Source: Tachypleus tridentatus (taxonomy: Eukaryota; Arthropoda; Merostomata; Xiphosura; Limulidae). From it: a stretch of 64,000 nucleotides of DNA. This document shows, piece after piece, positions 26,400 through 49,529 of this stretch. Location: assembly GCF_004210375.1 (NCBI RefSeq), contig NC_134829.1, forward strand, positions 26,614,034-26,678,033, in the 5' to 3' direction. Positions within the stretch are counted from its first letter, which is position 1, and each line of letters begins with the position of its first letter. The notes under the pieces were generated by a model. It saw only the letters and a program-made list of their open reading frames with translations. It was not told the DNA's origin and made no database searches. The position numbers and the translations under genes were made by a program.

Positions 26400-27048
26400 G
26401 CTCCTATTCATTTGATTTGTTTTAAATTTAGTCTTTTTGCGAAATATCCTCTGGTGAGCCAGCAGTAACACTTGATATTTACAACCCTTAAATCAGTGTT
26501 TCGATTCGTCTCGAAAAACACACACAACACCAAAACACAAACACATTTTTTTTCGAAATACTTGTCTTTTAAAGTTATACTATGACCAGTTCTACTATTT
26601 CCACGTTATTGTCTTCGGTAGTGCTATTAGATATATAATACTTTTTAAAGTTCTATTTTACTTTACAATTGCTCAAAATTGCACACTCTAAAAGACACAA
26701 AATTGGTCTATTCATCATCTAGGTATCAGTTTATCACTTAAATTATAAGATAAAGATAAAATAACTGCTACAAGTGCAGCTTTGTTTATTTTTTATTACT
26801 TCTATCTTCCAGCATCTATCTTTCAATTCCAAATGTTACAGTGCTTCAGCAATAGAGTCGATATTGAAGATTGGCCAAAGTCCCTTTTCACGACATCATT
26901 GATGGCACTTTTTTAATACAGCTGGAAATTGGTACATCAGAGTTTACATTTACAACCACGAAAAGTTATACTTAAGAGCAGGACCTTTACATCACTTTAT
27001 ATGATGTTTCGTCAGATCTTTTTGCTTTCAGTCACATGAGGAGTTATT
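26400..27048. other. Downstream of P450; possible old SINE-B at about 26450-26550
   Basis: AT-rich. CTGGTGAGCCAGCAGTAAC...TTTCGATTCGTC near 26450-26510 may be a degraded family B copy. Otherwise nothing recognised. Confidence 0.3.
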
Positions 27049-27368
27049 GAGTCAGATAGGGACTAGAAGACTCCTTATTGAGTCAGATAGGGACTAGAAG
27101 ACTCCTTATTGAGTCAGATAGGGACTAGAAGACTCCTTATTGAGTCAGATAGAGACTAGAAGACTCCTTATTGAGTCAGATAGGGACTAGAAGACTCCTT
27201 ATTGAGTCAGATAGGGACCAGAAAACTCCCGTTTTATGCCAGAAAGGGGCCCGATTTTTGAAACTGCTTCACTGTCTGGCGCCGAATCGAGCCAGATAGG
27301 GACTAGAAGACTCCCGTTTTATGCCAGAAAGGGGTCGATTTTTGAAACTGCTTCGCTGTCTGGCGCCG
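27049..27368 (+). repeat. Two-level minisatellite: six 31-bp units, then two 85-bp units
   Basis: GAGTCAGATAGGGACTAGAA + GACTCCTTATT (31 bp) repeats with starts at 27049, 27080, 27111, 27142, 27173 and 27204; the units differ by very few bases. The last unit opens a longer 85-bp period (starts 27204 and 27289) that adds GTTTTATGCCAGAAAGGGG and GCTTCxCTGTCTGGCGCCG. The 31-bp units therefore look amplified from the 5' part of the longer unit. Confidence 0.9.
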
Positions 27369-27379
27369 AAAGGTGTGGT

Positions 27380-28331
27380 ATTCTGTGAGCTGTAGTTTTA
27401 GTAAAACAATTTTTAAAAGCTGAAGGTGGCCACTGGTGGTTGTTAAGATAACATTTAAAGATACTAAGTTTGTTTTGCTGAATAATTGTTTGTTTTCCCT
27501 TTCTCGGTTACTTCACAAACAAGAAATATATTTACATACATTCGCATGCTTAAACGTTTATTGTTAGTAAGGAGGAACAAGTGAAGCTTGTACATGCAGT
27601 CAAAGATGCTGTTAACATCAGTAGTTAGGGCGCGTTGTTAGAGGAGATGATAGGACGATAATTCATCTATGAAAATAATGCAGATTCATCGCGAGCAAAC
27701 TACCAGAGAGTGTATATATCAATTTCACATTTAAAGTACTCATTACATTTTCAGCTTCTATATATAATTGCACCACGCATCTTTTCAATTTCTTTATATC
27801 TTATAGGCAATATATTTATTGCTAATTCAGGTGCTATAATCAACATGTTGTATAATATCTATTTGCTCTAAAAATGCTTATTTAATTCTCTAAATAATAT
27901 ACAATAACTCCATGTTGCTTTATAAGTTGATTTGTGTCACTAAAGTTTAGTTTTAAAGGATCTATGTAAATATTTATATTTAACCATTACTATTGTTGAG
28001 AACTATAATCTTACCTTCTTGGATATCCTTTCACAAACCTTTGTCGATAGCTTATTTCTTAGTGAATGATGATAAGAGAACATTGCCCTTCTATCTGAAG
28101 ATCATTAAACTAATCATTTTGCTACAATTAAATACAATAAATGAATGACTTGCCGTTTATCCAATAACGTTACTATTATTGAAACGAATTTATTTATTCT
28201 CCTACTTTAAATAATGACACAGAAAACTTAATACATATTCCTGGCATTCTCAAGATTTGAAGGTAAAGTAGAATCTGTATATAGTCTACTTATTCAGAGT
28301 GCATTTGTTTAAATACATAAAGAAATGTGAG
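27380..28331. other. No recognised feature
   Basis: AT-rich; no gene or repeat recognised. Confidence 0.4.
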
Positions 28332-29032
28332 TATTGTCAATCTTACATTTTATCTTAGGAAGGAATAACAACTTCATTACAGATATTATATACAAAACAC
28401 TGGAAGTACGATGAAAATTCACAAAACTTTGTGCTATTAGAGTACAACTTATAAACTTATTTTTTCTTTTTTGGCATAAATCCAAACGTCTGAAATAATT
28501 ATAACTTTGATTTTTTAGAAAACATAAAGGGTTATTGACAGAAGAGATTATCACATGGCCAAATAACCAATCGCCACTTAAAACCGGCAGAATAAAAGGT
28601 CGATAGCACTGAAAGCACAGGTCGGGGATTAGATAATTTTGTAATATACAGACAATTTTTTGGTAAAATATGTTATTTCTAGTTTGTAATGACATGCACG
28701 ATACTAGAGTCATGTCACTTTAAAATAATTCAAACGTATGTATATATTAAATATTTGTTGATAAATCAGATATTATGTTACACTGTAACATTCAATCTTA
28801 ATATTTTACCAAAAGTATAAAATATATTTTTCAAACATGAATGTAGTTTATAACAAAAAATGAGTTAAACAATGATAATCTTGAAATAATGTTTAATTAA
28901 TAATCGAGTAATTATTCTTTCATATTTTATAAATCCAAGATATTTAATGTTTGTCATAACAGAACACACTTTACAAAAACAATTGAAAGTCACAAGTATA
29001 CTGAAATAACATTTAATAACAAAGCTTCAAAC
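28332..29032 (-). repeat. Segment B, copy 1 (701 bp), attached to the Tx1-like LINE
   Basis: Nearly identical to 43622-44322. It interrupts the Tx1-like LINE just after the shared sequence CAGCTTTAAT. The minus-strand frame is open for about 134 codons (28713-28309; starts MTLVSCMSLQTRN). I do not recognise the protein; with only synonymous-looking and non-synonymous-looking differences visible by eye, coding cannot be decided. Confidence 0.7.
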
Positions 29033-29399
29033 AGCTTTAATCCATAAGCATATTTGCGGAGACGGATATTTACAAAATTTGATTCCCTTCGTGAACTGGT
29101 TTAATCAGCACCTCATAACTAACTTTGTGTATTCCTCAATCACATAGAAAGGTAAAAAACTCCTTTCATAACAAAACAAAAATAGTCTTCCATATGTAGA
29201 ACCTGAAGAGGACACCATAGTACAGAGGTAACTAAAGCATTTAATAATCAACATCCCATCCTTCAGGTACAAATCTCTATGTCGTCAAGATGTTAAAATA
29301 CAAGTAACTCGTCGACAGATGTCATGTCAATTCATACGATACATCTCAACTCTACCAGGGTAAAACTATATTTTAAGAACTGTTAAAACTTGAGAAAAG

Positions 29400-30390
29400 A
29401 TAGTAATACCTTCAAACACCTTCATTCCCCGAGAAATCCAACTTCATAGCCACAGACTCTTATCATAATTAACCAGACTACCTGATGCAGGCCTATGAAG
29501 TTTGCAAATTTGTGTAACAGAAGTTGTAGAAGAGACATAACTAAGTGTAAAAAATACCAACATGTTTGAAGATAACACAGGCGTGAGAAAATAATGTAAG
29601 ATCCAAGATATCATTATGCCAAGCAATCATATTATGTAAACATTCTTCAGAAAGGATGTATATCATCATCCACGGAAGAAAATTAACACCAAAACCACAA
29701 CACTGAAGCAAAGGAAACAAATAACCATACTCAACACGATCAAAAGCCTTTTGTGGGTCAACCTTGAGTAAAATCCCATTTGATGTAACTACTCAATTAA
29801 CACCTTCAAAAGGACAGGCATTGTAATCACATTCCTAATTAGAACATAACCAGTCTGGTCCTGTGATACGAGACCAGGAATAACCCGAAACAATTGATTG
29901 GCTATTAATTTAGTTAAAATCTTGTAATCACAATTTAATAATGTTATCGGATGGTAGCTTTTCCGTCAATTACCTATCTCCGCCTTTTGAAATCAAAATA
30001 AGAATTCCACACTTCATTATTTCAAGCAAAAAATTGCGTGAGAAACTTTCCCACAAAAACTCTCACAAAATCATCAATAAAAAAAGGTAACAAACACCGA
30101 AAAAATTCGGAAACGAAACCATCTTCCCCTATTATGTGTTGCTAAGCCTGCCTAACATTGTCAACAGTGATATCAGCACCAGTCGACAGACGATCAGGTC
30201 ACTTAATGTAGTTGAAGCTGAAGACAATACCTTATCCAAAGCCGAATCATCGACATGCTCCGACTTGTAAAATATAGAACAATATTTATGTAAAACTGCT
30301 CCAATATCTTTGGTTTCGGAAACTAGCCTACCCTTTAATATGAAAACGTTGTATTTCCGTTTTTCTGGCTCGAATCCGTTTAGCACACAA
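29400..30390 (-). pseudogene. Reverse transcriptase remnant of Tx1-like LINE copy 1
   Basis: Motifs on the minus strand: EKRKYNVFILKGRLVSETK (about 30360-30300), FYKSEHVDDSALDKVL, the DQTG block (about 29880-29830; QDQTG changed to ITGPD in frame), and QKAFDRVEYGYLFPL (about 29755-29705) of RT motif A, then GFGVNFLPWM. Frameshifts and stops make it inactive. Confidence 0.7.
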
Positions 30391-30779
30391 AAAAATACTA
30401 GTTGGACCGTTTTCCCTCCTCAAATCACCTCACAAGAGATATTAATATTACATCCTCTATCTGCTGTACATCCAAGTGCGCTAACTCAGTCTTTAAATCA
30501 CAGAGTTTCTGGTGAGATCGAAAAGAGCAAGATGAAATGAAGGTATGTTTACGTTCTATAGCCCTCTTCAGGTATGCTCTCTGAAAGCTTGAGCCCGACG
30601 GAAACAGTAAACTTACTTATTATATAGCTCCCTCCAGCTTCACATACCACTGGCTAATATCATTATGGTAATCAGACTAACCTCGACTTCGTCTGATTAA
30701 AAGATGTACCGTTTCAACATTGTCCATGTCCATCAACAGACGATTATTAAAATGACACAAACCAGTGTCATAAAACCAG

Positions 30780-31480
30780 TGACACTAACCGCACTAAACT
30801 GAAAATTAATTTTCAAAAAAGCGTGATCCGTTTGATGAAATCAACACCGATCAAAAGCCCCCACCCCAAAGGTACCACATTGGATGTAACAGGAATTTTG
30901 TCAATACCTGATTGAATTAGTGAACCGCGAAGAAACCCAGACTAGAGGGAAGGCAGCTAGTCATCACCACTCACCGCCAACTCTTGATCTACTCTTTTAC
31001 CAACGAAAAATGGAATTGACCAGACCATTATAACGCCCTCACGGCTGAAAGGGCGAGCATGTTTGGTACGACGGGGATTCGATTCCGCAACCCTCGAATT
31101 ACGAGTCGAATGCCTTAACCACCTGGCCATGCCGGGCCCAGTACAACCGAAAAATCATTAAAATTACAATTAATAACTATTACACTCCCAAAGTTATCAG
31201 CATAATCACATATTCAGAAAGTGAAGGGTGGACAAAAACTTCCACCCCTTGACGACTACTTACTGCTTTTGACACAAAAAATAGCCCGGGACAGAATTTA
31301 CAAATTAAATAATAATAATGATCAGTAAAAACTGTTTCTTCAAAACAAATTACTGAATAGGGTGTACTAAAATATGTCAAATACTTCTTCAGTTAACCAA
31401 AGCCTCTCAACCCGTTATAGTTCACCACTCCTATCTTGAATAAAACCGCCATATTGGGAAAGATATAATAAATAATTTAT
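30780..31480 (-). pseudogene. Endonuclease domain remnant of Tx1-like LINE copy 1
   Basis: Starts near 31455 with MAVLFKIGVVNYNGLRG, then LKKYLTYFSTPYSVICFEET (E of the catalytic QET/EET motif), and continues GVEVFVHPSL. Interrupted by SINE-A, then ends with DHAFLKINF near 30830 (SDH motif) followed by a G-rich linker. Confidence 0.65.
30939..31138 (-). mobile_element. SINE family A, reverse, tail truncated
   Basis: Begins at GACTAGAGGGAAGGCAGC, so the SINE's 3' tail is missing. The tRNA-like head (GGCCCGGCATGGCCAGGTGG on the minus strand) is complete. Inserted in the LINE endonuclease region. Confidence 0.9.
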
Positions 31481-31912
31481 TTTTCTCTGCGGTTTTTCTC
31501 CAAGGAAGTATTCAAAACTTATTCCGATAAGTATCAGGAGACTCCAACACTCTCTTCTTACTACTAGTCAGGGTGAAGTTTTCACCCCATATCAACCACT
31601 TTCGTTTATTCTTTACACCGAACCAAGGAAGTCAGGTAGAACTGTTGTTAACAGTGAAGATGTAGATGGGAAAGCCGCTTTCCCTCTAACTGTGGAAATT
31701 CAGGACCACAGTCAGTTCATAAAATTCTACCACTTGTTATGCACTCTTCACGATTTGACGCAGCAGATACAGGAGACGAAGATCATGGTCGATTAATCTC
31801 GGAATCAATAAGCGCTGATTTATGAAAAAATCATCTCCACTTTCCACACCTTTAGAATCATCGTCTGGAACTGCCTCCTCTGTGTGTGTGGTTAATTGTT
31901 TTTCAATAAAAA

Positions 31913-32186
31913 AGACTCGTCATGGCCAGGTGGTTAAGGCACTCGACTCGTAATTGAAGGTCGCGGGTTCGAATTCCCATACCTCCAAACATGCTCGTCC
32001 TTTCAGTCGTAGGGACGTTATAATGTGACGGTCCATCTTACTATTCGTTGCTAAAAGAGTAGCCCAAGATTGGCGGTGGGTGTTGATGACTAGCTGCTTC
32101 CTCTAATTTTACACTGCAAGATTAAGGACGGCTAGCGCAGATAACCGTTGTGTAGCTTTGCGCGAAATTCAAAATAAACCAAACCA
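31913..32186 (+). mobile_element. SINE family A, forward
   Basis: CATGGCCAGGTGGTTAAGGC, ACTCGACTCGTAATTG, GGTTCGAATTCCC, the ATAATGTGACGGTC body, TGACTAGCTGC, GGACGGCTAGCGCAGATAAC, TAGCTTTGCGCGAAATTC. Directly followed by a Jockey-like LINE fragment. Confidence 0.9.
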
Positions 32187-32189
32187 ATC

Positions 32190-32730
32190 CTCAATAAGAG
32201 ATCTATAATAGAATATGCATGTTCAGCCTGGATAAACATAACACAAAAACAATTACACAAACTACAAAAAATACAAAATTTAATCTTAACTTCAGCCTAT
32301 AAAGTACCACATAGTACTTCATCCACATTCATGCACAAGTATAGAAACATAGAGACAATATCTGAAAGACTCTTGCACAATGCACTAAAGTATTGTGATA
32401 AAAATTGGTATAAAAATGATTTATTGTGTGATCTACATACATGATGAGCATAGTCCTAAGTACCTCTTTCCTATGAACATATATTTAAGAAATATAAATC
32501 AAGCTGGTCATTATGCACGAGATGCTTAAAACTAGTGTAATATTCACACTTTTTGTAATTTTATTTTTTATTTTTTCTCTTCCTTTTCTTTCTTTCTCTT
32601 TTTCCGTTTTAAATATATATAAAATATATTGAAAAAATAACTAAATAAGAAATAAATAAAAGCAATAATGAAAAAAAAATAAATATATAAAAGAAGAAAA
32701 ATAAAAAAGGGACAACTCAAGACAATACAT
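32190..32730 (+). mobile_element. Jockey-like LINE, C-terminal and 3' fragment
   Basis: Plus-strand reading RSIIEYACSAWINITQKQL, then QKIQNLILTSAYKVP, STFMHKYRNIETISERL: the conserved region after RT in Jockey/R1-like LINEs. The same region is at 37165-37330 in the element starting at about 34440. It ends in A-rich sequence near 32700. Confidence 0.7.
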
Positions 32731-32732
32731 GG

Positions 32733-32809
32733 CCTGAAAAAGGCTGGAGTACTGTATGTTACTCACATGGACATTACCCTGAAAAAGGCTGGAGTACTGT
32801 ATGTTACTC
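32733..32809 (+). repeat. Direct repeat, 32 bp, 45-bp period
   Basis: CCTGAAAAAGGCTGGAGTAC...GTTACTC occurs at 32733-32764 and 32778-32809 without mismatch, so it is a young local duplication at the border between the LINE fragment and the Tx1-like ORF1. Confidence 0.85.
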
Positions 32810-33440
32810 TGGCCCAAAAGCACTACATCAACAACATAGTAATAGCCGACATGAAAGTTAGGGATGGAGGAAGAGGTCTCGTGCACCTGACGCTCCTGGG
32901 TATCCAAAATTCAACATACCCAAATACCCACAAAGAAGAAGCGAATAAGAGATCCTTCCATGACCACTTGGGAACGACAAGCAACATGACCTTGCCGATA
33001 ACGGTGACAAATCAACTGGTGGGAGCCACTGTACAAATGGTCCTCAACGAGACACAAGTTACACACATGACGTTGGTAATCATGCTTCGTTTTAATATAC
33101 TTTTCCCCAACGGATTCAGCACCTTAATCAAATAAGGCAAAGATGTACGGGAATCAGAAAAGGACAAACGTTCACGTTTTCACGCAATAGCACTTTTAAC
33201 ATCACAATCAAATTCACGCAACTTGGAAATAATACATGCATCAGTGACGTGAACACCGAAAAATGAAACAGTCAAGGTACGTTTAAACAAACCTTGCACC
33301 ATGTAGTTTTCACCATTAATAGTCAATCCAAGATCCACTACAAAATCTACATCATTATTTTAAAAAAATGTAACCTCGTAGCCCTCAGGCTGAGAGACAA
33401 TAGATGTAACTGAAACAGCACCTTGGTTGACATTAGGTGT
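32810..33440 (-). pseudogene. ORF1-like remnant of the Tx1-like LINE
   Basis: Minus-strand reading: EGYEVTFF, NNDVDFVVDLGLTINGENY, VQGLFKRTLTVSFFGVHVTD, CIISKLREFDCDVKSAI, then SLPYLIKVLNPLGKSI. The pattern recalls the ORF1 of Tx1-like LINEs (...VSFFGVHV...I..KLREFG.DV...). Two stops are visible. No zinc knuckle was identified. Confidence 0.5.
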
Positions 33441-33450
33441 ATCTTCAAAC

Positions 33451-33484
33451 ACAGGCGGGGATACTTACCACTATACTATCGAGG
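33451..33484 (-). pseudogene. tRNA-Asp 5' half, interrupted by the Tx1-like LINE
   Basis: Minus strand: CCTCGATAGTATAGTGGTAA + GTATCCCCGCCTGT, matching the first 34 or so bases of the intact tRNA-Asp at 49458-49529 with two changes, then switching to LINE sequence after CCTGT within the anticodon arm. Confidence 0.85.
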
Positions 33485-33900
33485 ACTGGTAACACTGACT
33501 TTTAAAATACAAGAATATTTTCCATGCGATTAATCTGTATTTTTACATTTTAAAATTTAAATTTTATTTTTTGGTTTACTTGTTTACACCCAGTAGATAA
33601 CCATATAAAGATTATTGAATTCAGAAATAACATCCTCATCAAATTTGGATTAATTCCTTTTTCAAGTTTCCCTTGGTATCTGATGCTTTCGTTATTTGAA
33701 CTTGAATGACACATATGCAGTGCTTAAACTGGACAGATTTACCTTCACTCCTCGTTTAATTTCTTACAATTTATTTTAAACCTTAACTTTCACAGTAAGA
33801 CATAAATGTTCTTCGAGAACAATAATTCATACAGCCTAAATTTACCACTAACGAAAATTGCTCAATTACGTATTTAGAATTTTTTCGATAAAAAGGTTAC
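33485..33900. other. No recognised feature
   Basis: AT-rich 5' flank of the interrupted tRNA sequence. Confidence 0.4.
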
Positions 33901-33934
33901 CATACACATATTTATTACTGGATGAAGTAACACC

Positions 33935-33998
33935 TCTCCACAGCGGGGAATCGAGCCCCGGTCTCCCGCGTGATAACTTACCACTATACTACCGAGGA
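33935..33998 (-). pseudogene. tRNA-Asp pseudogene with 10-bp deletion in the anticodon arm
   Basis: Minus strand: TCCTCGGTAGTATAGTGGTA, then AGTTA directly joined to TCACGCGGGAGACCGGGG, CTCGATTCCCCGC. The 5' strand of the anticodon stem (TCCCCGCCTG) is missing; the deletion ends one base from the LINE junction seen in the other copies. Confidence 0.85.
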
Positions 33999-34083
33999 CT
34001 GATAAATAATACCGACAAATATCTACAATTTTTTTTCTTCCCTCTATCAGTAATTTAACATTTTTTAATTCTCTAATCAATAA

Positions 34084-34209
34084 GCCTCCCAGTGGCTCAG
34101 CGGTGTGTCTGCAGACTTACAACACTAAAAACCAGGTTTCGATACCCGTGGTGGGCAGAGTACAGATAACCCATTGTGTAGCTTTGTGCTTAATTTAAAA
34201 CAACAACTA
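34084..34209 (+). mobile_element. SINE family B, forward, with target duplication
   Basis: Flanked by CTAATCAATAA at 34073-34083 and 34210-34220. Contains CCCAGTGGCTCAGCGG, GTTTCGATACCCG, GTACAGATAACCCATTGTG and (AAC)n tail. Confidence 0.92.
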
Positions 34210-34853
34210 CTAATCAATAAAGTGGTCATAAAATTGTAACTTTCCAGAGTGAAAAACGTTCAATATACCGATGACGCAATAAATATTTACGGAGGTGATT
34301 TGAAACAAAGAATAAGCAAGCCTTTGGAAGAGGTCAAGATTGTAGCTGACCCTCCCAGGTCCTTTCAAAGTCCTAAATCACGATAAAGTATAAACAGCAG
34401 CAAAATGGGTCTGCTGCAAGCACGCTCTTTATCGTTGATCGGACAGTATGTATACACACAAGGAAGAAAAGGATTCTGCGGTCTTTCGTGCGACAAGAGA
34501 TAAGAAAGAAAACAGCTGAAGTGTCACAGCTAGCTACAAGTCCACTAAAAATCGACTCAACAACGTCAGAAACAACAACTTAAGTGACGCGATCAGTGTC
34601 ATTGTTCCATGGAGAAGCGTGTGAAACTACAGCTCTACACTGAAGAACATGCCACAGGAACTTCTTCAGAATACTGAATGAAGTAAGCCTAACCTAAACA
34701 AAGAAGAAATAGTCAAATGATTAACGTACTCAACACCGAGTCTGTAAAACATGAGAACATAGTGTAAACTCGCTCAAATAAACCAACGTTAGAAAGTACT
34801 ATATACACAGACAAGCAATTAGCAACGATAGTAAGATCTCAGACGAGGAAAGT

Positions 34854-34910
34854 GTGTGTTTTTCTTACAGCAAAGCCACATTGGGTTATCTGCTGAGTCC
34901 ACCGAGGAAA
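34854..34910 (-). mobile_element. SINE family C fragment, reverse
   Basis: GTGTGTTTTTCTTACAGC, AAGCCACATTGGGTTATCTG and CTGAGTCCACCGAGG match the 3' part of family C in reverse. Confidence 0.7.
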
Positions 34911-34968
34911 GTAGTCACAAAAAAACAATGACACATGTAAGGAACAAGAGAACGCATCTGAATTTCAT

Positions 34969-36060
34969 ATGAGTACGAAATATATAACAGGAAAAGAACA
35001 AGAACCAACATATGTTGTTAATAAAAGATCCAAAAAGAACAGAAAACAAACAGACGAAGGAAATACAGAACAAAATACAAAACTTACAGACAGAAACAAA
35101 AGCACTCGAATAAACAAACAAACCAAATTAAATTATCATTACAGAATTCATCCCAGTATAATACAAAGAATTCGAGAAACGGCCGAAGTAAAAAGATTTA
35201 GGTTGAATGCAAAAGTAGTGCAGACAAAAAGACTAGGAAAAAAAGAAGTCCTTGTGCGAGGTCAAGAACCTCGTGACCTCGATCCACTGCTAAAGGAATG
35301 GCTTCAAGACGCCTTTTAACCCGGAAGCACACTTATACACCTACCAGGAAACGGTCCACAACAAAAATATATTTGCAATTTGAAGAGTTTAGCTGACGAC
35401 TGATCTGGAATAATTCAAAGAGATAATAACTGACTTACAAATCAAGCACACAAAAACCGAAAAAAAATGATGTCAACAAGAACTGATACGCTGAAACATC
35501 TAAACAAAGTGGCTACGAAAAATATACATAAATAATTCAAAACGGAATAACAATATGGTACCAAAAATATACCGTCGAAGTGGCAAAAACACTGGCAATT
35601 CTCGTAACTCAGTGCTTCTACTGCCAAATATTTGGGCACAGGCAAACCTCAACCAAATGTGTAGGAAGTGACGAAACTCTTGGATCACCTGAGAAGCCAG
35701 AACTCATTAACACACCAAATATTGCGACTGTATTGAGCAACATACAGCCAACCACAAAGCCTGCCAGAAGTATAAGGACATAAAGCAAATATCTTATAAA
35801 ATACGAAACAATATAAACACTACAAACACTATAACAACAAAACCTAAAAATAGATCACACAAGTTTTTGCTGTTCCCAACATCACCAAAACAAAGAAGAA
35901 CATACTATAAGGTTACTCGACAAGAAAAACCAAACGAACAAACACAACCACAAATTAAACAAGATCTTCAGAAACAAATAAACAAGCAGAGCCAACAAGG
36001 TACAACCACTAACAACGATGGTAACAAAGCAATTATAAATAGAATAATCGACCCCTTATG
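34969..36060 (+). pseudogene. ORF1 (gag-like) of the Jockey/R1-like LINE
   Basis: An open 116-codon basic frame (34969-35319; SIIQRIRETAEVKRFRLNAK) is followed, after breaks, by a CCHC knuckle near 35608-35661 (CFYCQIFGHRQTSTKC: C-x2-C-x4-H-x6-C). Then a Gln/Thr/Asn-rich basic tail at 35867-36061. Nucleic-acid-binding LINE protein; broken by stops. Confidence 0.6.
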
Positions 36061-36489
36061 ACTATCTAGCAAACCTAATAACAGCACGAATATAATAATC
36101 ATTGTCGTCAAGGGACATCTACAATACCACATGTGATATATAAAATCCTGACAATGAACACTAACAATACTACACATAAATATCCAATGTGGCCTTGTTT
36201 CCACGTAGCATGAGATTAAAGTCGAAAACGATAAATATAATATTTGTCATATAAACCACAATATGTGCAATTATCACTTATTCAAATGTTCAAGATACCA
36301 ACTAACAAGAAAAAGACAATCCAAACAACAAATCCCCAGAACGTGACATGCTACTTCTGTACAAAAAATAGCTATCAGTAAACACAATACACATACCATC
36401 AATGTATATTACAAAAGACATACTATTAAGAAATAACCAAACAGTCACAATATCAGGTAGATACTCGCCACCACATGAATTTAATCAAA

Positions 36490-37470
36490 AGCACTGCATA
36501 GTCGCATGCTTCCTGGATGTAGAAAAGCACTTGATAAAGTGAGGCACAATGGCCTTAGATACAAATTGTTCAGAATGGGATTCCCTAAAGAAATTATTCG
36601 CTGGTTTTTTAACTTCCTGGAGGATATGAACATCAGAATAAAGGCTGAGGGCACCTACTACACTATGGATACAGGTGTCTTTCGGAGACGAGGTAGTTAG
36701 CCCTACTCTATTTATAATGTATGTCAAAAACATGACTCTTAAAGACCCAAACCATACCATTTGCTCACAGCTCACAGATGATGTTGCTAAGTGGAGGAGT
36801 GCCACAGACGGAGAAAAATACATATAATATTCAATCAATACTAAACAAAATAGAACTGCATTGCCATATACGGAGAATTAAAAGGAATACACATAAACCG
36901 CAAACCATACTATTCACAAAATCAAACAAAACAAGAACTGTTATACCACAGTTATACTTAGACGGGTTATTTTAACAGGTAAAAACATCAACAACACCCT
37001 TAGCAATTACTGTTTACTCGAAATTATCCAACATACCACACATTAAAAATCAGAATATGAAAAAGAGTGATAGAAAAGAGTGAGTTATCTTTGGGACCTG
37101 ACGGGCAACAACCAAAGAGCTACGCCAGAAAAAAATATTAAATACACAACAACACATATATTAGACCAGTCGTGAAATATGCCTGTATAACATAGATCAA
37201 TGTATCAAAAACACACATGAGTATACTACAGCAAATACAAAACTACATTTTAACGAAAACATACTTGAGTCCCTCGTTAAACAGCTCCGTATTTCTTTAC
37301 AACTACTCAAATATTCCGACTCTTACAAGAAAAATACAAACAAAAAAGAATTGATGAGCGAATTAGAAAACCACATAATACGTGACAGACCTAGCCCTAA
37401 GTGCCTTTCTCTCTAAATTTCATAAATAAGATAGTTACAGCGCAAACACTGCCAAACTAACTGATTCCTT
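36490..37470 (+). pseudogene. Reverse transcriptase remnant of the Jockey/R1-like LINE
   Basis: KALDKVRHNGLRYKLFRMGF (RT motif A region, F of AFDKV lost), then IRIKAEGTY, then SQLTDDVAKW (catalytic FADD changed to LTDD; about 36765-36795), IELHCHI..IKRNTHKPQTI and the C-terminal block about 37165-37330. Frame breaks near 36700 and 36760 and several stops. Confidence 0.75.
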
Positions 37471-37499
37471 TACACAAACTTAGCTCTTAAAAAAATATT

Positions 37500-37766
37500 A
37501 TACATGTAAAAATACGATTTTGTATGTGTACGAGTGTTAAATAATCCTAGGATTCATAATACGATAATGTATTAGTGAAGCTCAGTGCAAATACACTTGT
37601 TCATATAGCCCCATGAAATGGACGTGGCTTGAAAAGGGTATGTTAAATTAAAAAATCCGGTCAATGGACAATAGTTAATGCACCGTGAGTAAAGCAACGC
37701 AGTAACGGGAATATTACCTATAAGACGGTTTCACTTCAAATAGAATAATATCACCTTCTGATAGGG
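37500..37766. other. No recognised feature
   Basis: Short unassigned AT-rich stretch. Confidence 0.4.
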
Positions 37767-37767
37767 T

Positions 37768-38013
37768 TTCGTTTGTTTCGAATTTCGCGCAAAGCTACAC
37801 GAGGGCTATCTGCGCTAACCGTCCCTAATTTTGCAGTGTAAGACTAGAGGGAAGGCAGCTAGTCATCACCACCCACCGCTAACTCTTGGGCTACTCTTTT
37901 ACCAACGAATAGTAGGACTAACCGTAACATTTTAACGCCCCCACGGTTGAAAAGGCGAGCATGTTTGATGAGACCGGGATTCAAACCCACCACTCTCAGA
38001 TTACGAGTCGAAC
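37768..38013 (-). mobile_element. SINE family A, reverse
   Basis: CGAATTTCGCGCAAAGCTAC, the GGGCTATCTGCGC tail, body and the tRNA-like B box GGTTTGAATCCCGG on the minus strand. The head end is replaced by a 27-bp tandem repeat (TTGAGTAGTTTTAACTATA...) at 38018-38080. Confidence 0.88.
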
Positions 38014-38017
38014 GTAA

Positions 38018-38080
38018 TTGAGTAGTTTTAACTATATTAGTATATTGAGTAGTTTTAACTATATTAGTATATCGAGTAGT
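38018..38080 (+). repeat. Short tandem repeat, about 27-bp unit
   Basis: GAGTAGTTTTAACTATATTA + GTATATT is present twice, and a third partial unit (GAGTAGTTTTCTTGCTATTA) follows. Confidence 0.8.
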
Positions 38081-38316
38081 TTTCTTGCTATTAGGAAACG
38101 CTGTGTAAAAAGAAAAATTAGATTTTTGGTCATTGATACTGCAGTAACGTTTACTGAGAAGAAAAATATACTGAATAAATCCGTAACTTCTGAGTGAGAG
38201 AAATCACACATTATGTCGTTACTTTAAAACATTTTGATAAACGAGATCAGCGTCAACACGTGTTTATCTACTTTAGCTACACAGTGCGATATGTGCCCTT
38301 TGCACCTCGACTATCT

Positions 38317-38594
38317 TTCGTTTGTTTGTTTTGAAATTCGCACAAAGCTACTCGAGGGCTATCTGTGCTAGCCGTTCCTAATTTAGTAGTGTAAGACTAG
38401 AGGGAAGGCAGCTAGACATCACCACCCACCGCCAACTCTTGGGCTACTCTTTTTACCAACGAAAAGTGGGATTGACCGTAACATTATAACGCCCCCACGG
38501 CTGGGAAAGCGAGCATGTTTAGCGCGACTCGGATGCGAACCCGCGACCTTCAGATTCCGAGCGCATTCCTTATCGCGCTCGGCCATGCCAGGCC
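38317..38594 (-). mobile_element. SINE family A, reverse, with target duplication
   Basis: Flanked by CCTCGACTATCT at 38305-38316 and 38595-38606. Complete head, body and (TTTG)n end. Confidence 0.93.
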
Positions 38595-38721
38595 CCTCGA
38601 CTATCTAAACTCAGTTTTTAACATTATAACATCTCAGACTTTCTGGTGAACCACTGCTGTGGAAGTGGGTTATTTAAGTGAAAAATATTTTAACCATTTA
38701 ACCACAGTCCTTGTTATAATG

Positions 38722-39007
38722 GAGGTTCGGCATGACCTGGTGGTCAGGGCGCTCGATTCATAATCTTAAGGTAGCGGGTTCGAATCCCCCTCACACCAAA
38801 TATGCTCCCCGTTTCAGCTGTGGAGGTGTTATAATGTGACGCTCAATACCACTATTCGCTAGTAGAAGAGTAACCCAAGAGTTGGCAATAGGTGGTGATG
38901 ACTAGCAGCCTTCCCCACGTCCAGTCCTACCCTGCTAAATTAGGGACAGCTAGCAGATAGCCTTTATGTAGCTTTGCACGAAATTCAAAAACAAACAAAC
39001 AAACAAA
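38722..39007 (+). mobile_element. SINE family A, forward
   Basis: Head GGCATGACCTGGTGGTCAGG, B box GGTTCGAATCCCC, tail TTTGCACGAAATTC with (CAAA)n. Flanks CTTGTTATAATG and CTTGCCATAATG look like a target duplication with two differences. Confidence 0.9.
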
Positions 39008-39019
39008 CTTGCCATAATG

Positions 39020-39670
39020 TTTACGATAAGATTACCATATAATGCTGAAAGCAAATAGCTTGAAAATTAAATCGACAATTGTTATAGAATGAACGTTTTC
39101 TACTAGCTGGCCAAGCATGCTTATAACTGCAGTTGTGGTAATACATTAGTATTAATCCTGTTAAAATTTTAAACAATATATTATTTAACTGTATTTGTTA
39201 TAAGAATTATGATAGACCTATTATATTTTTAATACGTCATTCCTAATCCAGCCCTTGCAGATTTTCAATAATTACAAGTGTATACCAATGATATTTCAAC
39301 CACACAGTATTCTTCAAATTGGCTGTTATCCCAAAAAAGTATTTCATACTTTAAAATCGCACCTTGTGCAACATATCACAGGTTCCCAAATGGCGATTCG
39401 TAGCCCTCTAGGAGTGCGTGATAGTATTTAATGGGCCGCAATAATATATAAAATTTATGGAATTTTCATTTACTGAAAAAGTAACAAATAAGATGAAATG
39501 CAAAGACATTATGAGATTAGTATAGTAATATATATATACAAATCCCAAATTAATAATTGTAATTAAATTATGTAAATTCAATATGCGTCTGCCATTGCCT
39601 GCTGATTGCGAAAAACAAACGACAGTTGTTTTCCAGTTGGAGTGATTCATCACCCCAGTGTGTACATCAG
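39020..39670. other. No recognised feature
   Basis: AT-rich; nothing recognised. Confidence 0.35.
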
Positions 39671-39674
39671 TCAC

Positions 39675-40085
39675 AATTAATGGTTACTAGCTGGGGTACT
39701 CGTACCCTGGACGGAAGTTATGTAAATTCATGATTAATGAAAGGTTAACTTAGGGCATGAAAAGTTGTTTCCTTTATATAAAATTTAAAAAAAATCTAAA
39801 ACAACCCTAAAACAACAAAACTCAAAATGTAAAACCGTAAATTCACATGTACTTTCTCATGGATCTAACAAACCTTTGTGCCCAATTTGATTAAAATTCA
39901 TCAACAGGTGCAAAGTAGTGGTAAAAAACACACTCTTAAAATCCGTAAAATGTTGGAAATGTTTATGTATTTCCCTATGGATCTAACGATCCTCTATACC
40001 AATTTTGGTATCTAAATATTTATATGGACATACAACAGACAGTACTATCATATTTATATAGATGGCGCCAGTGCAATATAACCCA
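39675..40085 (+). repeat. Possible unclassified repeat ending in TATATAGATG
   Basis: ACTAGCTGGGGTACTCGTAC, two similar phrases (TTTCTCATGGATCTAACAA at about 39851; TTTCCCTATGGATCTAACGA at about 39969, about 118 bp apart) and an ending ACATACAACAGACAG...TATATAGATG. Endings of this sort are common in dispersed invertebrate repeats. No protein recognised. Confidence 0.35.
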
Positions 40086-40740
40086 GTGTGACGTATTAAG
40101 AAAATAAAGTTCTCCGTGATGGGAAACGAAGGCGAAACAGGAGAATTGGAATCTATATTGTAAATCTACACATACACACACGATAAAAATTTCGCGAATT
40201 TGAGGGTTGCACATCGCGTAATAAATTTTTTTCCAGTATTAGATAAGCAAGAGTTCCATTATAGTATGATTACAATAATTACATGAGTAGTAGTGGTGCC
40301 AATAACAGTAACTTATAATTTGTTTCAACAATTTTTTGACTTTTAAAGTTACTCATCAAACTATGAATCAGTATCTTAAATCTAGCGTAATAACAAACAG
40401 CAAGCTTAGTGACAGGCCTAGTGATACAAGTGGTAGCCCTACTGTATCAAGCTCAAGGTTCTTTCAACAAAGTATTATCGTACTTCAGATTAAAGTAAGT
40501 CGTGTAACGGATTTACTATTATATATTTATTTTAATATCGACGTTTGTTTCAGTTAAATATATATTTAGAAATACATGCGACTTATATTGCTAAATGTGT
40601 ATTGTGAAATTCTTGCCTATTATCTAAATCTGTAGAAAATTTTGGAGTCTAAAAGTCAACAACCTATGACGTGTGTATGTAAACACTAGTGACTGCCAGT
40701 ATTCTTGCTAACTGAAATTTCGAGAACCTCGCCTAATGAT
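40086..40740. other. No recognised feature
   Basis: Contains a 73-codon frame at 40336-40557 with a Ser-rich segment (SDRPSDTSGSPTVSSSRF) that I cannot assign. Confidence 0.3.
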
Positions 40741-40750
40741 TATAAAAGGT

Positions 40751-41006
40751 TTGTTTTGGAATTTCGCACAAAGCTACTCGAGGGCTATCTGTGCTAGCCG
40801 TCCCTAATTTAGCAGTGTAAGACGAGAGGGTAGGCAACTAGTCATCACCACCCACCGCCAACGCTTGGGCTACTCTTTAACCAACGAATAGTAGGATTGA
40901 CCGTAACATTATACGCCCCCACGGCTGGGAGGGCGAGCATGTTTAGCGCGACGCGGGCTCGAACCCGCGACCCTCGGATTACGAGTCGCACGCCTTACGC
41001 GCTTGG
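40751..41006 (-). mobile_element. SINE family A, reverse, with target duplication
   Basis: Flanked by TTATAAAAGGT at 40740-40750 and 41007-41017. The 73-codon frame at 40897-41118 lies mostly in this SINE. Confidence 0.93.
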
Positions 41007-41017
41007 TTATAAAAGGT

Positions 41018-41894
41018 GGCCATCCACACATATGGAGAGACAGTACATATTGTTGGTTTGCTACATTTGGTATACTATAAACTTCGGAAGCTATAATCGG
41101 GAAACAACAGATATGTGACTAGGGAACGTTTATAATTTCAAAAATTAGAGACCATTTAACCTCAGTAGATTAACTTCGGACGTTAGTATTTCTACGAAAA
41201 CATGAGATAACTTTAGTGCTAAAAGCCTTACGTGTGATCAGTGAAAATCTAGCTACCTACCCGTTAAGTAAACTATACCGATATCAACTCTAAATTAATT
41301 CGCTCATCTTGAACCGTCGATAAAATATTCAGCTCCAGATCAGATAAAAGACTCAATACTGTTTGTAAGTTGCAAAACTTTTGTATGTAAATCATTATTT
41401 GTAATAATCGTTATTATAAATTGTATTGTTGTTTGTATATTAAAATATATTTGTAATAAGAAAGAAAATTGTGTATCAATCTTGTTGACAAACATCATAA
41501 ATTTGATACACCTGTAAATTTAATGAACTTCTAGATTTAAATAAACCACTGTTTTAGGCTATTTGAAATCGCAATACGTAATCTAATAAACTGGAGGTTC
41601 GTCCGAGATAAATTATAACACGTAACAGTCGTAAGATTTTTAAATAATTTCCCATATTTAAATATCTTTTCATTGTACTTTTTTAAAACTATATTCAATC
41701 TCTAAAGGTTATAAAATACGCATATGAGAAAAACTATTTTTAACTGGAAGTGGTTCGCCAATGCACTACATTAAAAAAGTTGAAGATATCTACCTTTTTA
41801 CGTATGTATAAATCTTCTGTTCTGAAAATATTACATTTTAAAAGCCAGATAACGTAACCCACTGATTTAATTTTATTGGAAATAAAAATGCTAT
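41018..41894. other. No recognised feature
   Basis: AT-rich; no gene or repeat recognised. Confidence 0.4.
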
Positions 41895-41926
41895 CCTCTC
41901 CAGTGGGGAAACGAACCCCGGTCTAC
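41895..41926 (-). pseudogene. tRNA-Asp 3' half, downstream border of Tx1-like LINE copy 2
   Basis: Minus strand: AGACCGGGGTTCGTTTCCCC then ACTGGAGAG, matching the variable/T-arm and acceptor 3' strand of tRNA-Asp. Directly preceded on that strand by non-tRNA sequence. It lies 3.6 kb from the 5' half at 45505, in the same orientation. Confidence 0.75.
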
Positions 41927-42089
41927 AAAAATACATCAATCTTTCAAGTTAATCATTATATTAATCTGTATTATAATGAAGTGCTAATGAAGATAATTAT
42001 TCGAGATACAAACACAGAAAATTAATAGTAACAAAGAAAAAATTACCAAACTTATAAATATTAAAATGAACTACAATAATATGAAAGTC

Positions 42090-42210
42090 TTGTGTGTGTT
42101 TTTCTTATAGTAAAGCCACATAGGGCTATCTGCTCAGCCTACCAAGGGGAATCGAACCCCTGATTTTAGCGTTATAAATCCGGAGACATATCGCTGTACT
42201 AGCGGGGGGC
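42090..42210 (-). mobile_element. SINE family C, reverse, with target duplication
   Basis: Flanked by AATATGAAAGTC at 42078-42089 and 42211-42222. B-box-like GGGGTTCGATTCCCC on the minus strand. Confidence 0.93.
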
Positions 42211-42575
42211 AATATGAAAGTCAATAAAAAGCGAACCAAATTATCATTCCAACATTCCAAATCACTGAATAATATATAACCCTGTACACCCTCACTTAAC
42301 AAATACCCAGAGTCGCGATAAATACTATAGAAATCTGACAGTTTGTTGTCTAACTAAGATCGTGAGAAATTGAAATAAATGTTAGCTTTAAGTTGAGTCA
42401 TAAAGATATTAACAAAATGAACACGAACACGACGTGACAGAACCTTATTGTGGGCTAAATATATATTTCGAACTTAGCTATAATCGTACACAAACGTAAC
42501 AACCCGAGATGATTAGAACTCAGCTGAGGTAAAAATCCAACCAAAGCCATATGCCTATTTTCATGATCCGTTAAC

Positions 42576-43110
42576 TCACGGCCTAGAAACTAAACCCCAC
42601 GTGCCCTGTACTCTAGAACATTGGAAAAACATGTGAGCAATGGTTTCTTGAACCACTCCAGAGAATGAATATAAACCCGTCGGATGATGGGACATACGAA
42701 CCAACTTAATATTGGCAGTCACCGCATGATACCAAATAAGATAATTAAAATTACAATACCGATAGCCGACAAACGAACAGAAGGAACCAAATAAGAGACC
42801 AGTCGGTAACGGGTACGACACTTTTCCGAAACTGGTGGTGGGCAGCATTACCCTGTAAAACGATAAATACCTTACGTAAGGAAAGATCCTGAAATACATT
42901 AAAATTCAAAACATTATCACTTGAAAAATACAAAGTTCGTCTGGGGAGCATCCACCCGAAGGTAATCTGGAAGTAATAAAGATAATCAATCCTGGAGGAG
43001 AGCAGAAGAGAGGGACGTTTACCAGCCAACTCTTCAGTGAGTTCAGTATTAGTGGACAAAACCATATCAATAACCGCAGATTCGCAGAGGAAGGAAAGAT
43101 AAGCTCATAA
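42576..43110 (-). pseudogene. C-terminal ORF2 remnant of Tx1-like LINE copy 2
   Basis: Minus-strand frames: RPSLLLSSRIDYLYYFQITF and, shifted, WYHAVTANIKLVRMSHHPTG, IAHMFFQCSRVQGTWGLVS. The N..(C)..C...T..H.F..C......W pattern is the zinc-binding domain found after RT in L1/Tx1-like ORF2. The first Cys pair is lost. Confidence 0.65.
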
Positions 43111-43434
43111 TGTAAATGACGAAGTCACGTGATACCTGCAGCTACAAATTCACGAAATGTTCACTTATGGTTATTCACTAAATTTGAATTGAGAAACAAA
43201 TGTTGGTCGAAAATTTCCAGAAAATCGTCATTTGGCTACCGAGTAAAAATCATCAGAAAATATTATCCAACCTTAAAGATTTCAGCAATATGTGGAGGTA
43301 AGACTCGTGTAAATGCGGAACCATTTGACAGGAAAATACGTCAGCAGTAAGTTGTAAATTCCCGTAAAGACCAAAATAAAAACCTGGTAACGAACTTAAA
43401 ACCTCATGATACTGTCCAGATAAACGGTTCTGAT

Positions 43435-43618
43435 GCAGCTTTAATCTATAAGCATATTTGCGGAGACAAATATTTACAAAATGTCTCCCCTTCTCCGTGA
43501 ACTGGTTTAATCAGCACCTCATAACTAGCTTTGTGTATTCCTCAATCACACAGAAAGGTAAAAAACTCCTTTCATAACAAAACAAAAATAGTCTTCCATA
43601 TGTAGAACCTGAAGAGGT
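43435..43618 (-). repeat. Segment A', extra copy of a LINE piece
   Basis: About 184 bp, CAGCTTTAATCTATAAGC...CCTGAAGAGG, matching 44323-44508 and 29033-29213. It is continuous at its left with LINE C-terminal sequence; at its right it meets segment B. Confidence 0.85.
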
Positions 43619-43621
43619 TCT

Positions 43622-44322
43622 ATTGTCAATCTTACATTTTATCTTAGGAAGGAATAACAACTTCATTACAGATATTATATACAAAACACTGGAAGTACGA
43701 TGAAAATTCACAAAACTTTGTGCTATTAGAGTACAACTTATAAACTTATTTTTTATTTTTTGGCATAAATCCAAACGTCTGAAATAATTATAACTTTGAT
43801 TTTTTAGAAAACACAAAGGGTTATTGACAGAAGAGATTATCACATGGCCAAATAACCAATCGCCACTTAAAACCGGCAGAATAAAAGGTCGATAGCATTG
43901 AAAGCACAGGTCGGTGATTAGATAATTTTGTAATATACAGACAATTTTTTGGTAAAATATCTTATTTCTAGTTTGTAATGACATGCACGATACTAGAGTC
44001 ATGTCACTTTAAAATAATTCAAACGTATGTATATATTAAATATTTGTTGATAAATCAGATATTATGTTACACTGTAACATTCAATCTTAATACTCTCCCA
44101 AAAATATAAAATATATTTTTCAAACATGAATGTAGTTTATAACAAAAAATGAGTTAAACACTGATAATCTTGAAATAATGTTTAATTAATAATCGAGTAA
44201 TTATTCTTTCATATTTTATAAATCCAACATATTTAATGTTTGTCATAACAGAACACACTTTACAAAAACAATTGAAAGTCACAAGCATACTGAAATAACA
44301 TTTAATAACAAAGCTTCAAACA
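43622..44322 (-). repeat. Segment B, copy 2 (701 bp)
   Basis: Nearly identical to 28332-29032. The minus-strand frame is open here too and extends into A' (44002-43511, 163 codons). Lies between two copies of segment A. Confidence 0.85.
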
Positions 44323-44640
44323 GCTTTAATCCATAAGCATATTTGCGGAGACGGATATTTACAAAATTTAGATTCCCTTCGTGAACTGGTTTAATCAGCA
44401 CCTCATAACTAACTTTGTGTATTCCTCAATCACATAGAAAGGTAAAAAACTCCTTTCATAACAAAACAAAAATAGTCTTCCATATGTAGAACCTGAAGAG
44501 GACACCATAGTACAGAGGTAACTAAAGCATTTAATAATCAACATCCCATCCTTCAGGTACAAATCTCTATGTCGTCAAGATGTTAAAATACAAGTAACTC
44601 GTGGACAGATGTCATGTCAATTCATACGATACATCTCAAC
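44323..44640 (-). repeat. Near-identical continuation of the block shared with 29033-29352
   Basis: Identity to the first copy is very high until about CTCAACACTATCAGGG at 44635-44650; then it falls sharply although LINE homology goes on in register. The boundary marks a recent duplication or conversion tract. Confidence 0.8.
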
Positions 44641-44762
44641 ACTATCAGGGTAAAATTGTATAACAAAAACCCTTAAAACTTGAGAAAAGATAGTAATACT
44701 TTCAAATACCTCCCCTCGCCGAGAAGTCAAATTTCCTAACCACAGATTCCTGCTCTTATTAT

Positions 44763-44862
44763 AACTGGCCAGGTGGTCAAGGCGCTCAACTTGTAATTCG
44801 AGGGAATAACGCAGAAACAACTCGAATAGCTTTGCGCGAAATTCAAAAGAAACCAAACAAAC
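44763..44862 (+). mobile_element. SINE family A, forward, internally deleted
   Basis: Head GGCCAGGTGGTCAAGGCGCT, CTTGTAATTCGAGGG jump directly to AACTCGAATAGCTTTGCGCG and a CAAA tail. About 200 bp of the body are missing. Confidence 0.85.
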
Positions 44863-45504
44863 TACCTGACGGACGTCTATAAAGTTGACAAATTCTTATA
44901 ACAGGAGTTATAGAAGAGACAACAGATACTTTTATAATACAGTCACAAACTTTATTGACCAAAACAGAAGCATTTTACACCTAAATTTCCAGTCAACAAT
45001 ATTACACACCAAGAAAAGACTGGAGCACTCATCAACTGGTAAAACATATCACTGTTACAGTGTTCAAATAGTATCATCACAATGTTGACATGTCATATTA
45101 GTATGAGAAAATAATCTATCACTCAAAATATCATTATACCGAACAATCATTTCATGTGAACATTCTGCACAAAGGATGTACGTTATCTCCGATAGAGAAC
45201 ACTTCCGGCTAAGCCTTCAGGCATGTTGATAGCCTCGGTAGGATAACCATTATATTTAATAATACTAGAAATAGCAGAATAGTTTCATCCATCGAAGAAA
45301 ATTGACATCAAAACCATAACACTGAAGTACAGGAAACAAATAATCATATTCAACACGATCAAAAGCTTTCATTTGATCAGTTTTGGGCAAAATCCCACTT
45401 CCTTTTTTTTTTTTTTTTTTCGGTCTAAGTAGTCCATTAACAACTTCAAAAGAAGAGGCACTGCGACCACATCCCTAACTGGAATATAATCAGTCTGGTC
45501 CTGT

Positions 45505-45541
45505 AACAGGCGGGGATACTTGTTACTATACTACAGAGAAT
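45505..45541 (-). pseudogene. tRNA-Asp 5' half, upstream border of LINE copy 2
   Basis: Minus strand: CTGTAGTATAGTAACAAGTA + TCCCCGCCTGT, then LINE RT sequence. Same breakpoint as at 33451. Confidence 0.8.
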
Positions 45542-46115: not shown

Positions 46116-46187
46116 TTACCGGTAGTATAGTGGTGAGTATCTCCACCTGTTACGCGGGACACCGGGGTTCGATTCACATCCGCTTAG
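46116..46187 (+). pseudogene. tRNA-Asp pseudogene, full length, forward
   Basis: TTACCGGTAGTATAGTGGTG, AGTATCTCCACCTGTTACGC, GGGACACCGGGGTTCGATTC then ACATCCGC. Box A and B are preserved, but the acceptor stem no longer pairs well and the anticodon position reads GTT rather than GTC. Confidence 0.85.
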
Positions 46188-49457: not shown

Positions 49458-49529
49458 CTCCCCGGCGGGGAATCGAACCCCGGTCTCCCGCGTGACAGGC
49501 GGGGATACTCACCACTATACTACCGAGGA
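49458..49529 (-). tRNA. tRNA-Asp (anticodon GUC)
   Basis: The minus strand folds as a 72-nt cloverleaf. The acceptor stem TCCTCGG pairs with CCGGGGA (one T-G), with a G discriminator. Anticodon stem CCCGC/GCGGG surrounds the loop CTGTCAC with GTC in the anticodon position. The T arm GGGG-TTCGATT-CCCC contains the B box. A T4 run 8 or so bases downstream (complement of 49447-49450) can end Pol III transcription. The only intact member of the tRNA-Asp family in this window. Confidence 0.93.

Follow-up and report, generated by a model that had tools for sequence, protein, structure and literature searches.

An old L1-group LINE in Tachypleus tridentatus that appears to prefer tRNA-like DNA: tRNA-Asp genes and, more often, SINE heads

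Introduction

In a 64,000-nucleotide stretch of the Tachypleus tridentatus genome (contig NC_134829.1, positions 26,614,034 to 26,678,033; hereafter the window), two tRNA-Asp genes are broken by copies of one long interspersed nuclear element (LINE). The locus raises the question of whether this LINE inserts at one fixed site and whether tRNA-Asp genes are its only target, as an initial annotation of the window had proposed. That interpretation is partly supported: it was right in kind and too narrow. The element is most probably (roughly 87%) an old, degraded LINE of the L1 group, perhaps Tx1-like, that favoured one part of tRNA-like DNA, reaching from the D arm to the anticodon loop, in tRNA-Asp genes and, more often, in the tRNA-derived heads of short interspersed nuclear elements (SINEs). 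This preference looks strong but incomplete.

Results

Two tRNA-Asp genes are broken at the same base

The two junctions reported by the initial annotation are confirmed: on the minus strand, two tRNA-Asp genes of the window break at the same base, which lies in the anticodon loop (33451 and 45506), and run in the same sense into one LINE family. The half preceding LINE copy 1 is 94% identical to the intact gene (49529-49458), and LINE sequence begins directly after nucleotide (nt) 35. The half preceding copy 2 (45538-45506, minus strand) comprises nt 3-35 and passes directly into the reverse transcriptase (RT) region. The joined points of the LINE differ, and here too the earlier description holds: copy 1 joins near the start of the first reading frame, about 30 nt ahead of the point where its alignments to loci L016 and L018 set in, and at the junction of copy 2, inside the RT, other genomic copies continue upstream as LINE. 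The junction letters are cgtatcacag/GACCA in copy 1, L011 and L017, and cctgttacag/GACCA in copy 2. Because of these shared letters, one or a few bases at each 5' junction can be assigned to either side; both junctions fit a break at nt 34/35-36.

The DNA upstream of the copy 2 half resembles that upstream of the intact tRNA-Asp gene (64% over 180 bp, E 5e-13), and the DNA upstream of the copy 1 half shows a weak likeness to it (66% over 77 bp, E 2.5e-4). The halves are therefore tRNA-Asp genes and not LINE parts. That the tRNA half might be a component of the LINE, an objection the initial annotation had raised against itself, was ruled out by this gene-like upstream DNA together with the split SINE heads described below.

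Beyond copy 2 lies a tRNA-Asp 3' part (41924-41896, nt 44-72) with 86% identity to tRNA-Asp, formerly taken as the matching half of the insertion. The part is present, but its border with the LINE does not represent a clean junction of insertion. Alignments of copy 2 with eight other copies (of which two duplicate each other) reach to about 4 bp from 41925, and past that point the other copies continue. A shared 3' tail, approximately TTTATACC-CCTCTATGAGGGTGGATTAATAAAGAAA and then an A-rich run, is found in 15 of 20 ten-kb loci fetched from the genome (14 without the duplicate). Copy 2 lacks this tail, and tRNA nt 36-43 as well; since other copies have the tail, the junction of copy 2 at tRNA nt 44 is secondary. 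The simplest account would be a later single deletion of roughly 60 bp across the original 3' junction. No 3' tail was found for copy 1.

tRNA-like DNA follows the LINE tail

The tail pattern, with at most three mismatches, was found at 132 genomic places versus three for the reversed control. LINE lengths range between about 94 bp (L087) and about 5.5 kb, nested insertions included (L009); a common 3' end with variable 5' truncation marks the element as a LINE of the non-long-terminal-repeat type. At contig C6, 71.930 Mb, a distance of 586 bp separates two tails on one strand (L043 and L053), and past the L043 tail the sequence resembles LINE again by eye, perhaps a tandem insertion. A hairpin predicted in three typed tails (z -0.4 to -2.1) is not claimed, since its pairing (200 of 232 cells) was within the range of shuffled sequences, 791 of 2000 of which were equally good.

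We fetched 60 further tails in two sets. The first set plus 14 tails from the ten-kb loci gave 54, the second gave 20, and the combined sample was 72 after two more duplicates had been dropped. A flank was counted when it scored at least 14 to SINE-A, SINE-M, SINE-U or tRNA-Asp, started at nt 16-36 of the reference and lay within 30 nt of the tail. This rule was fixed only after the flanks of the first set had been inspected and its thresholds were left unchanged for the second, which is therefore the fairer test. The first set gave 16 of 54, versus 0.47% of 2982 random segments, and the second 5 of 20, among which one duplicated locus counts twice. Combined, 20 of 72 tails (28%) had such a flank, versus 0.77% of 19,879 segments drawn at random from the same loci (binomial P about 1e-25, treating copies as independent). 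A score of at least 14 was reached in the LINE sense by 26 of the 72 flanks and in the reverse sense by one. These 26 were mostly heads of the three tRNA-derived SINE types; 22 of them had their start between the D loop and the anticodon loop (reference nt 15-33), and 24 began inside the head (nt 15 or later).

SINEs are very common and SINE-A is very abundant in this genome (2.17 Gb). Rfam found no tRNA part in 20 tail loci, which is little informative because whole families are scored. The flank after the tail of L042 resembles the 3' part of a genuine tRNA, which we take to be perhaps tRNA-Gln, so that tRNA genes other than tRNA-Asp may be targets.

Split SINE heads

In L009, L010, L011, L023 and L028 the tail runs into the 3' part of the tRNA-like head of a SINE. 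Among further copies whose 3' flank is tRNA-like, ten (L081-L090) were read over 3.5-4 kb upstream; with the five loci just named, they make 15 copies with such a flank read upstream. Two cases were clear. In L009, SINE-M nt 1-35 stand before the LINE and nt 22-107 after it, with a target duplication of 14 bases of which 11 are still identical; in L090, SINE-M nt 3-36 are followed by about 124 bp of LINE and then by SINE-M nt 22-106. Two others were good: in L083, about 350 bp of LINE separate SINE-A nt 2-36 from SINE-A nt 28-105, with GCTTGACTC exactly repeated and occurring once upstream, and in L087 about 94 bp of LINE stand between SINE-A nt 1-22 and nt 49-105. Target duplications are about 9-14 bp long in the three readable copies (L009, L083 and L090). 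No 5' half was found in the upstream 3.5-4 kb of L081, L082, L084, L085, L088 and L089, where some LINEs may extend further; L085 is cut by what, by eye, we presume to be a mariner element.

A scan for broken heads covered 27 sequences (the 20 ten-kb loci, both window copies and five upstream loci) on both strands at a score of at least 15. Breaks near nt 35 were found in L009, copy 1 and copy 2, and L013 has a SINE head that stops at nt 24; this threshold overlooks weaker halves such as that of L083. SINE-M nt 35 is equivalent to tRNA-Asp nt 33 (ungapped alignment) and SINE-A nt 36 to nt 34 (by count), which puts the 5' junctions of the clear cases (L009, L083, L090 and both window copies) within the anticodon loop, at tRNA nt 33-35.

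Insertions recur at the same position in one type of target, as a preference and not exclusively. Site-preferring insertion into the anticodon arm, as first suggested, is supported. The single fixed site that was proposed with it stands for the 5' junction of the clear cases; it does not stand for the 3' junction, which varies, nor for the 46 of 72 tails without a recognised tRNA-like flank.

Affiliation and age of the element

A 147-amino-acid piece of L021 matched RVT_1 of Pfam (3.6e-12), as expected of an RT of this LINE type. Compared with solved chains, it matched 8c8j (2.7e-14) and L1 ORF2p (4.9e-14) best and R2 at 0.12. On this one piece the RT is nearer to L1 than to R2, in support of the L1-group assignment of the initial annotation; we presume a Tx1-like resemblance of the family. 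The motif GDFNC, which we take to be that of an apurinic-type endonuclease, was recognised by eye in L016 and L018, as was a zinc-knuckle-like piece in L018. For the endonuclease region, Pfam gave no match (two pieces) and solved structures nothing relevant (one piece).

Longer aligned pieces of other copies are about 67-82% identical to copy 2, apart from the 96% block of copy 1 described below. The longest stop-free stretch among the listed LINE regions, masked bases excluded, is 176 amino acids. Intact copies, for which a search had been proposed, were not present among those fetched, and the family looks long dead.

Features of the window

The features of the window are listed in Table 1. 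Homology of copy 1 to the 20 ten-kb loci stops at about 29029; the remainder (28332-29028) is matched by copy 2 and, partly, by two unfetched genomic places (contigs C11 and C7; 72-73%). SINEs interrupt copy 1 at 30939-31138 and 31918-32187. Copies 1 and 2 have in common a 1.15-kb block at 96% (28332-29476 versus 43621-44772), whereas their other alignable parts are about 73-82% identical, and copy 2 contains an internal repeat at 93% (44321-44501 and 43436-43617). The block and the repeat suggest gene conversion or local duplication. Past the end of the LINE homology of copy 1, a 31-bp tandem repeat (27044-27229) has six copies with 97% matches. Outside the window, a large tRNA-Asp array occupies 99.16-99.71 Mb of contig C9; the 36 matches listed for this contig are perfect 73-base matches to the intact gene. 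The array has a spacing of about 1.41 kb, also of about 1.7 and 2.2 kb, and contains both orientations.

Table 1. Positions of tRNA-Asp sequences, LINE copies and a nested SINE in the window.
Feature	Positions	Strand	Remarks
Intact tRNA-Asp(GTC)	49458..49529	(-)	Uninterrupted neighbour gene
tRNA-Asp 5' half, nt 1-35	33451..33485	(-)	LINE copy 1 at its break in the anticodon loop
tRNA-Asp nt 3-35	45506..45538	(-)	Same break base; LINE copy 2 at break
tRNA-Asp nt 44-72	41896..41924	(-)	Past the far end of LINE copy 2; secondary junction, without LINE tail or tRNA nt 36-43
Degraded tRNA-Asp copy	46120..46182	(+)	89%
tRNA-Asp copy	33936..33998	(-)	9-base deletion
LINE copy 1	28332..33450	(-)	Starts near ORF1, through RT to ~29029; no 3' tail found
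LINE copy 2	41925..45505	(-)	5'-truncated within RT; without 3' tail; final letters ...gtatttttgt
SINE-M (which we take to be Meta-SINE-like)	42091..42210	(-)	Nested within the 3' region of copy 2; gactttcatatt flanking both sides

Discussion

Weighing the explanations

The preference for tRNA-like DNA is supported by the two LINE copies of the window, which start at different points of the element and interrupt a tRNA-Asp gene at one and the same base. A LINE strictly specific for tRNA-Asp genes would account for this pair, and the large array on contig C9 could be held in its favour. Yet none of the 20 other ten-kb LINE loci contains a tRNA-Asp half as strong as those of the window, and none of 11 fetched altered tRNA-Asp pattern matches is split by a LINE (five are near-full-length tRNA-Asp with base changes or a deletion, six are SINE-like by eye). 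Most recognised flanks belong to heads of three SINE types, and the analysis of 72 tails refutes tRNA-Asp as the exclusive target, so that the strict specificity first proposed is now very improbable. In a pattern search for tRNA-Asp 5' halves broken after nt 35 only copy 1 had a LINE behind it, halves as diverged as that of copy 2 being undetectable by this search; a pattern for the 3' half, preceded by unrelated bases, had 0 matches and is little informative, being blind to the diverged half of copy 2. L040 (contig C7, oriented 330-355), with an exact 26-nt piece of tRNA-Asp (nt 9-34) that ends at nearly the same base as the window halves, was rejected as a further case because non-LINE DNA follows. 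L040 and the window at about 27876-28013 have a 141-bp repeat in common (79%).

At the other extreme, the LINEs might have landed at random in an abundant SINE background, with two coincidental insertions into a tRNA cluster. SINEs are indeed very common here and 46 of 72 tails have no tRNA-like flank, but the required geometry is found in 0.77% of random segments against 28% of copies, the orientation is 26 against 1, and two tRNA-Asp junctions fall on one base. The random-segment control refutes chance, unless the control loci badly misrepresent the genome, and we regard it as a most unlikely cause. The anticodon loop suggests another origin. tRNA halves arise by cutting in that loop, and switching of the RT from LINE RNA to a 5' tRNA half would yield chimeric inserts with no insertion into tRNA genes; the 5' junctions coincide with the cut point, and copies 1 and 2, taken alone, suit this model. 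It was rejected all the same, and is scarcely credible, because the DNA upstream of the halves resembles the flank of a tRNA gene and the remainder of the same SINE type lies past the LINE in L009, L083, L087 and L090. Finally, the tRNA-like flanks could be SINEs inserted into LINE tails. A full SINE-A stands directly past the tail in L021 and L073, and SINE-M lies within the 3' region of copy 2, L012, L019 and L025. However, 24 of 26 tRNA-like flanks start within the head and split heads exist whose first part precedes the LINE, which makes this order of events improbable as a general explanation. The L021 and L073 arrangement looks as if SINEs favour the A-run of the tail.

Several observations weigh against the preference for tRNA-like DNA that we favour. 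The panel of SINEs and tRNA-Asp recognised no tRNA-like flank at 46 of 72 tails; decay, other targets or loose specificity may be the cause. Six of the 26 flanks lie outside nt 16-36: L093 and L108 start at nt 15, L048 at nt 49 and L060 at nt 44, and in L021 and L073 a complete SINE-A with unsplit head begins right after the tail and is thus no evidence for a split head. A panel-free test, for a B box at the right distance, gave a weaker enrichment (15 of 54 versus 3.9%), the 15 including L021 and L073. The 3' junction varies and is not one base, the copies are old with their junctions blurred by age, and the tRNA 3' part of copy 2, starting at nt 44, requires a later deletion. On the 5' side, a half was present in five of the 15 copies read upstream (one weak) and absent in ten. 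The weak one, L086 (score 11), is suggestive only and within chance scores, which reached 12; the head of L083 (12.8) is barely above them and rests on its 9-bp repeat, and the 5' half of L087 extends only to nt 22.

Possible mechanism of insertion

Under the favoured preference for tRNA-like DNA, the endonuclease would nick the lower strand near the D loop, and the free 3' end of the target would act in the A-rich tail as the primer for reverse transcription. The second cut, that of the upper strand, would lie downstream, in the anticodon loop. The 5' junctions in the anticodon loop and the 3' parts beginning from the D loop on fit such a pair of cuts. It is conceivable, though rather doubtful, that the LINE read the tRNA-like form of its target and not the primary sequence, through occupancy of the A box by RNA polymerase III (Pol III) factors or through an anticodon-arm hairpin in open DNA, and that the spread of SINEs multiplied its landing sites. 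If so, SINE-A, SINE-M, SINE-U and tRNA-Asp would all have served, despite little likeness at the cut, because their form was recognised.

Comparison with known elements

Keno, Mutsu and Dewa are, we presume, members of the Tx1 clade. They are target-specific LINEs of U2, 5S and the tRNA-Leu spacer, respectively (PMC3706591, PMC4640811); in the available parts of these sources they resemble the present family as target-specific LINEs in small RNA gene arrays, the Tx1 clade being one of several groups rich in target-specific families. The closest likeness in target is offered by NeSL-1_TV (tRNA-Pro), LIN15_SM (tRNA-Arg) and LIN25_SM (tRNA-Glu), which are LINEs specific for tRNA genes (PMC4640811). 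As far as that source was accessible, each is given for one tRNA type and is treated with the NeSL-related groups that have a restriction-like endonuclease, whereas the present family has an L1-group RT, the tested piece of which matches R2 weakly, and several tRNA-like targets, mostly SINE heads. TRE5 and TRE3 of Dictyostelium are likewise L1-type LINEs attracted to tRNA genes, but according to the portion of the paper at hand they insert at a distance up- or downstream (PMC5911963), in contrast to the present LINE, which lies inside the tRNA. The DNA transposons Dada-tD and Dada-tV have tRNA genes, tRNA-Asp among them, as targets and enter these around the anticodon, and Dada-tV takes several tRNAs; in the excerpts consulted they are oriented opposite to the tRNA (PMC8869645), unlike the present element, which is a LINE with an RT in tRNA sense.

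LINEs inside tRNA genes and DNA transposons in the anticodon arm are thus already in print. Our literature search found no description of an L1- or Tx1-group LINE inside tRNA genes or SINE heads, nor of an L1-group LINE on several tRNA-like targets, mainly SINE heads.

Implications

The target-specific LINEs compared above are, in the available parts of the cited papers, each tied to one multicopy target. The family described here would be a natural case of relaxed target choice, in which an L1-group LINE uses a class of tRNA-like sites, and most of its recognised targets are SINEs, which themselves depend on LINEs. A tRNA half next to a LINE, therefore, need not imply a target restricted to that tRNA gene. 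The family raises the question of whether such a LINE reads sequence, Pol III factors or DNA shape, and through it the selection of target sites by such elements can be studied.

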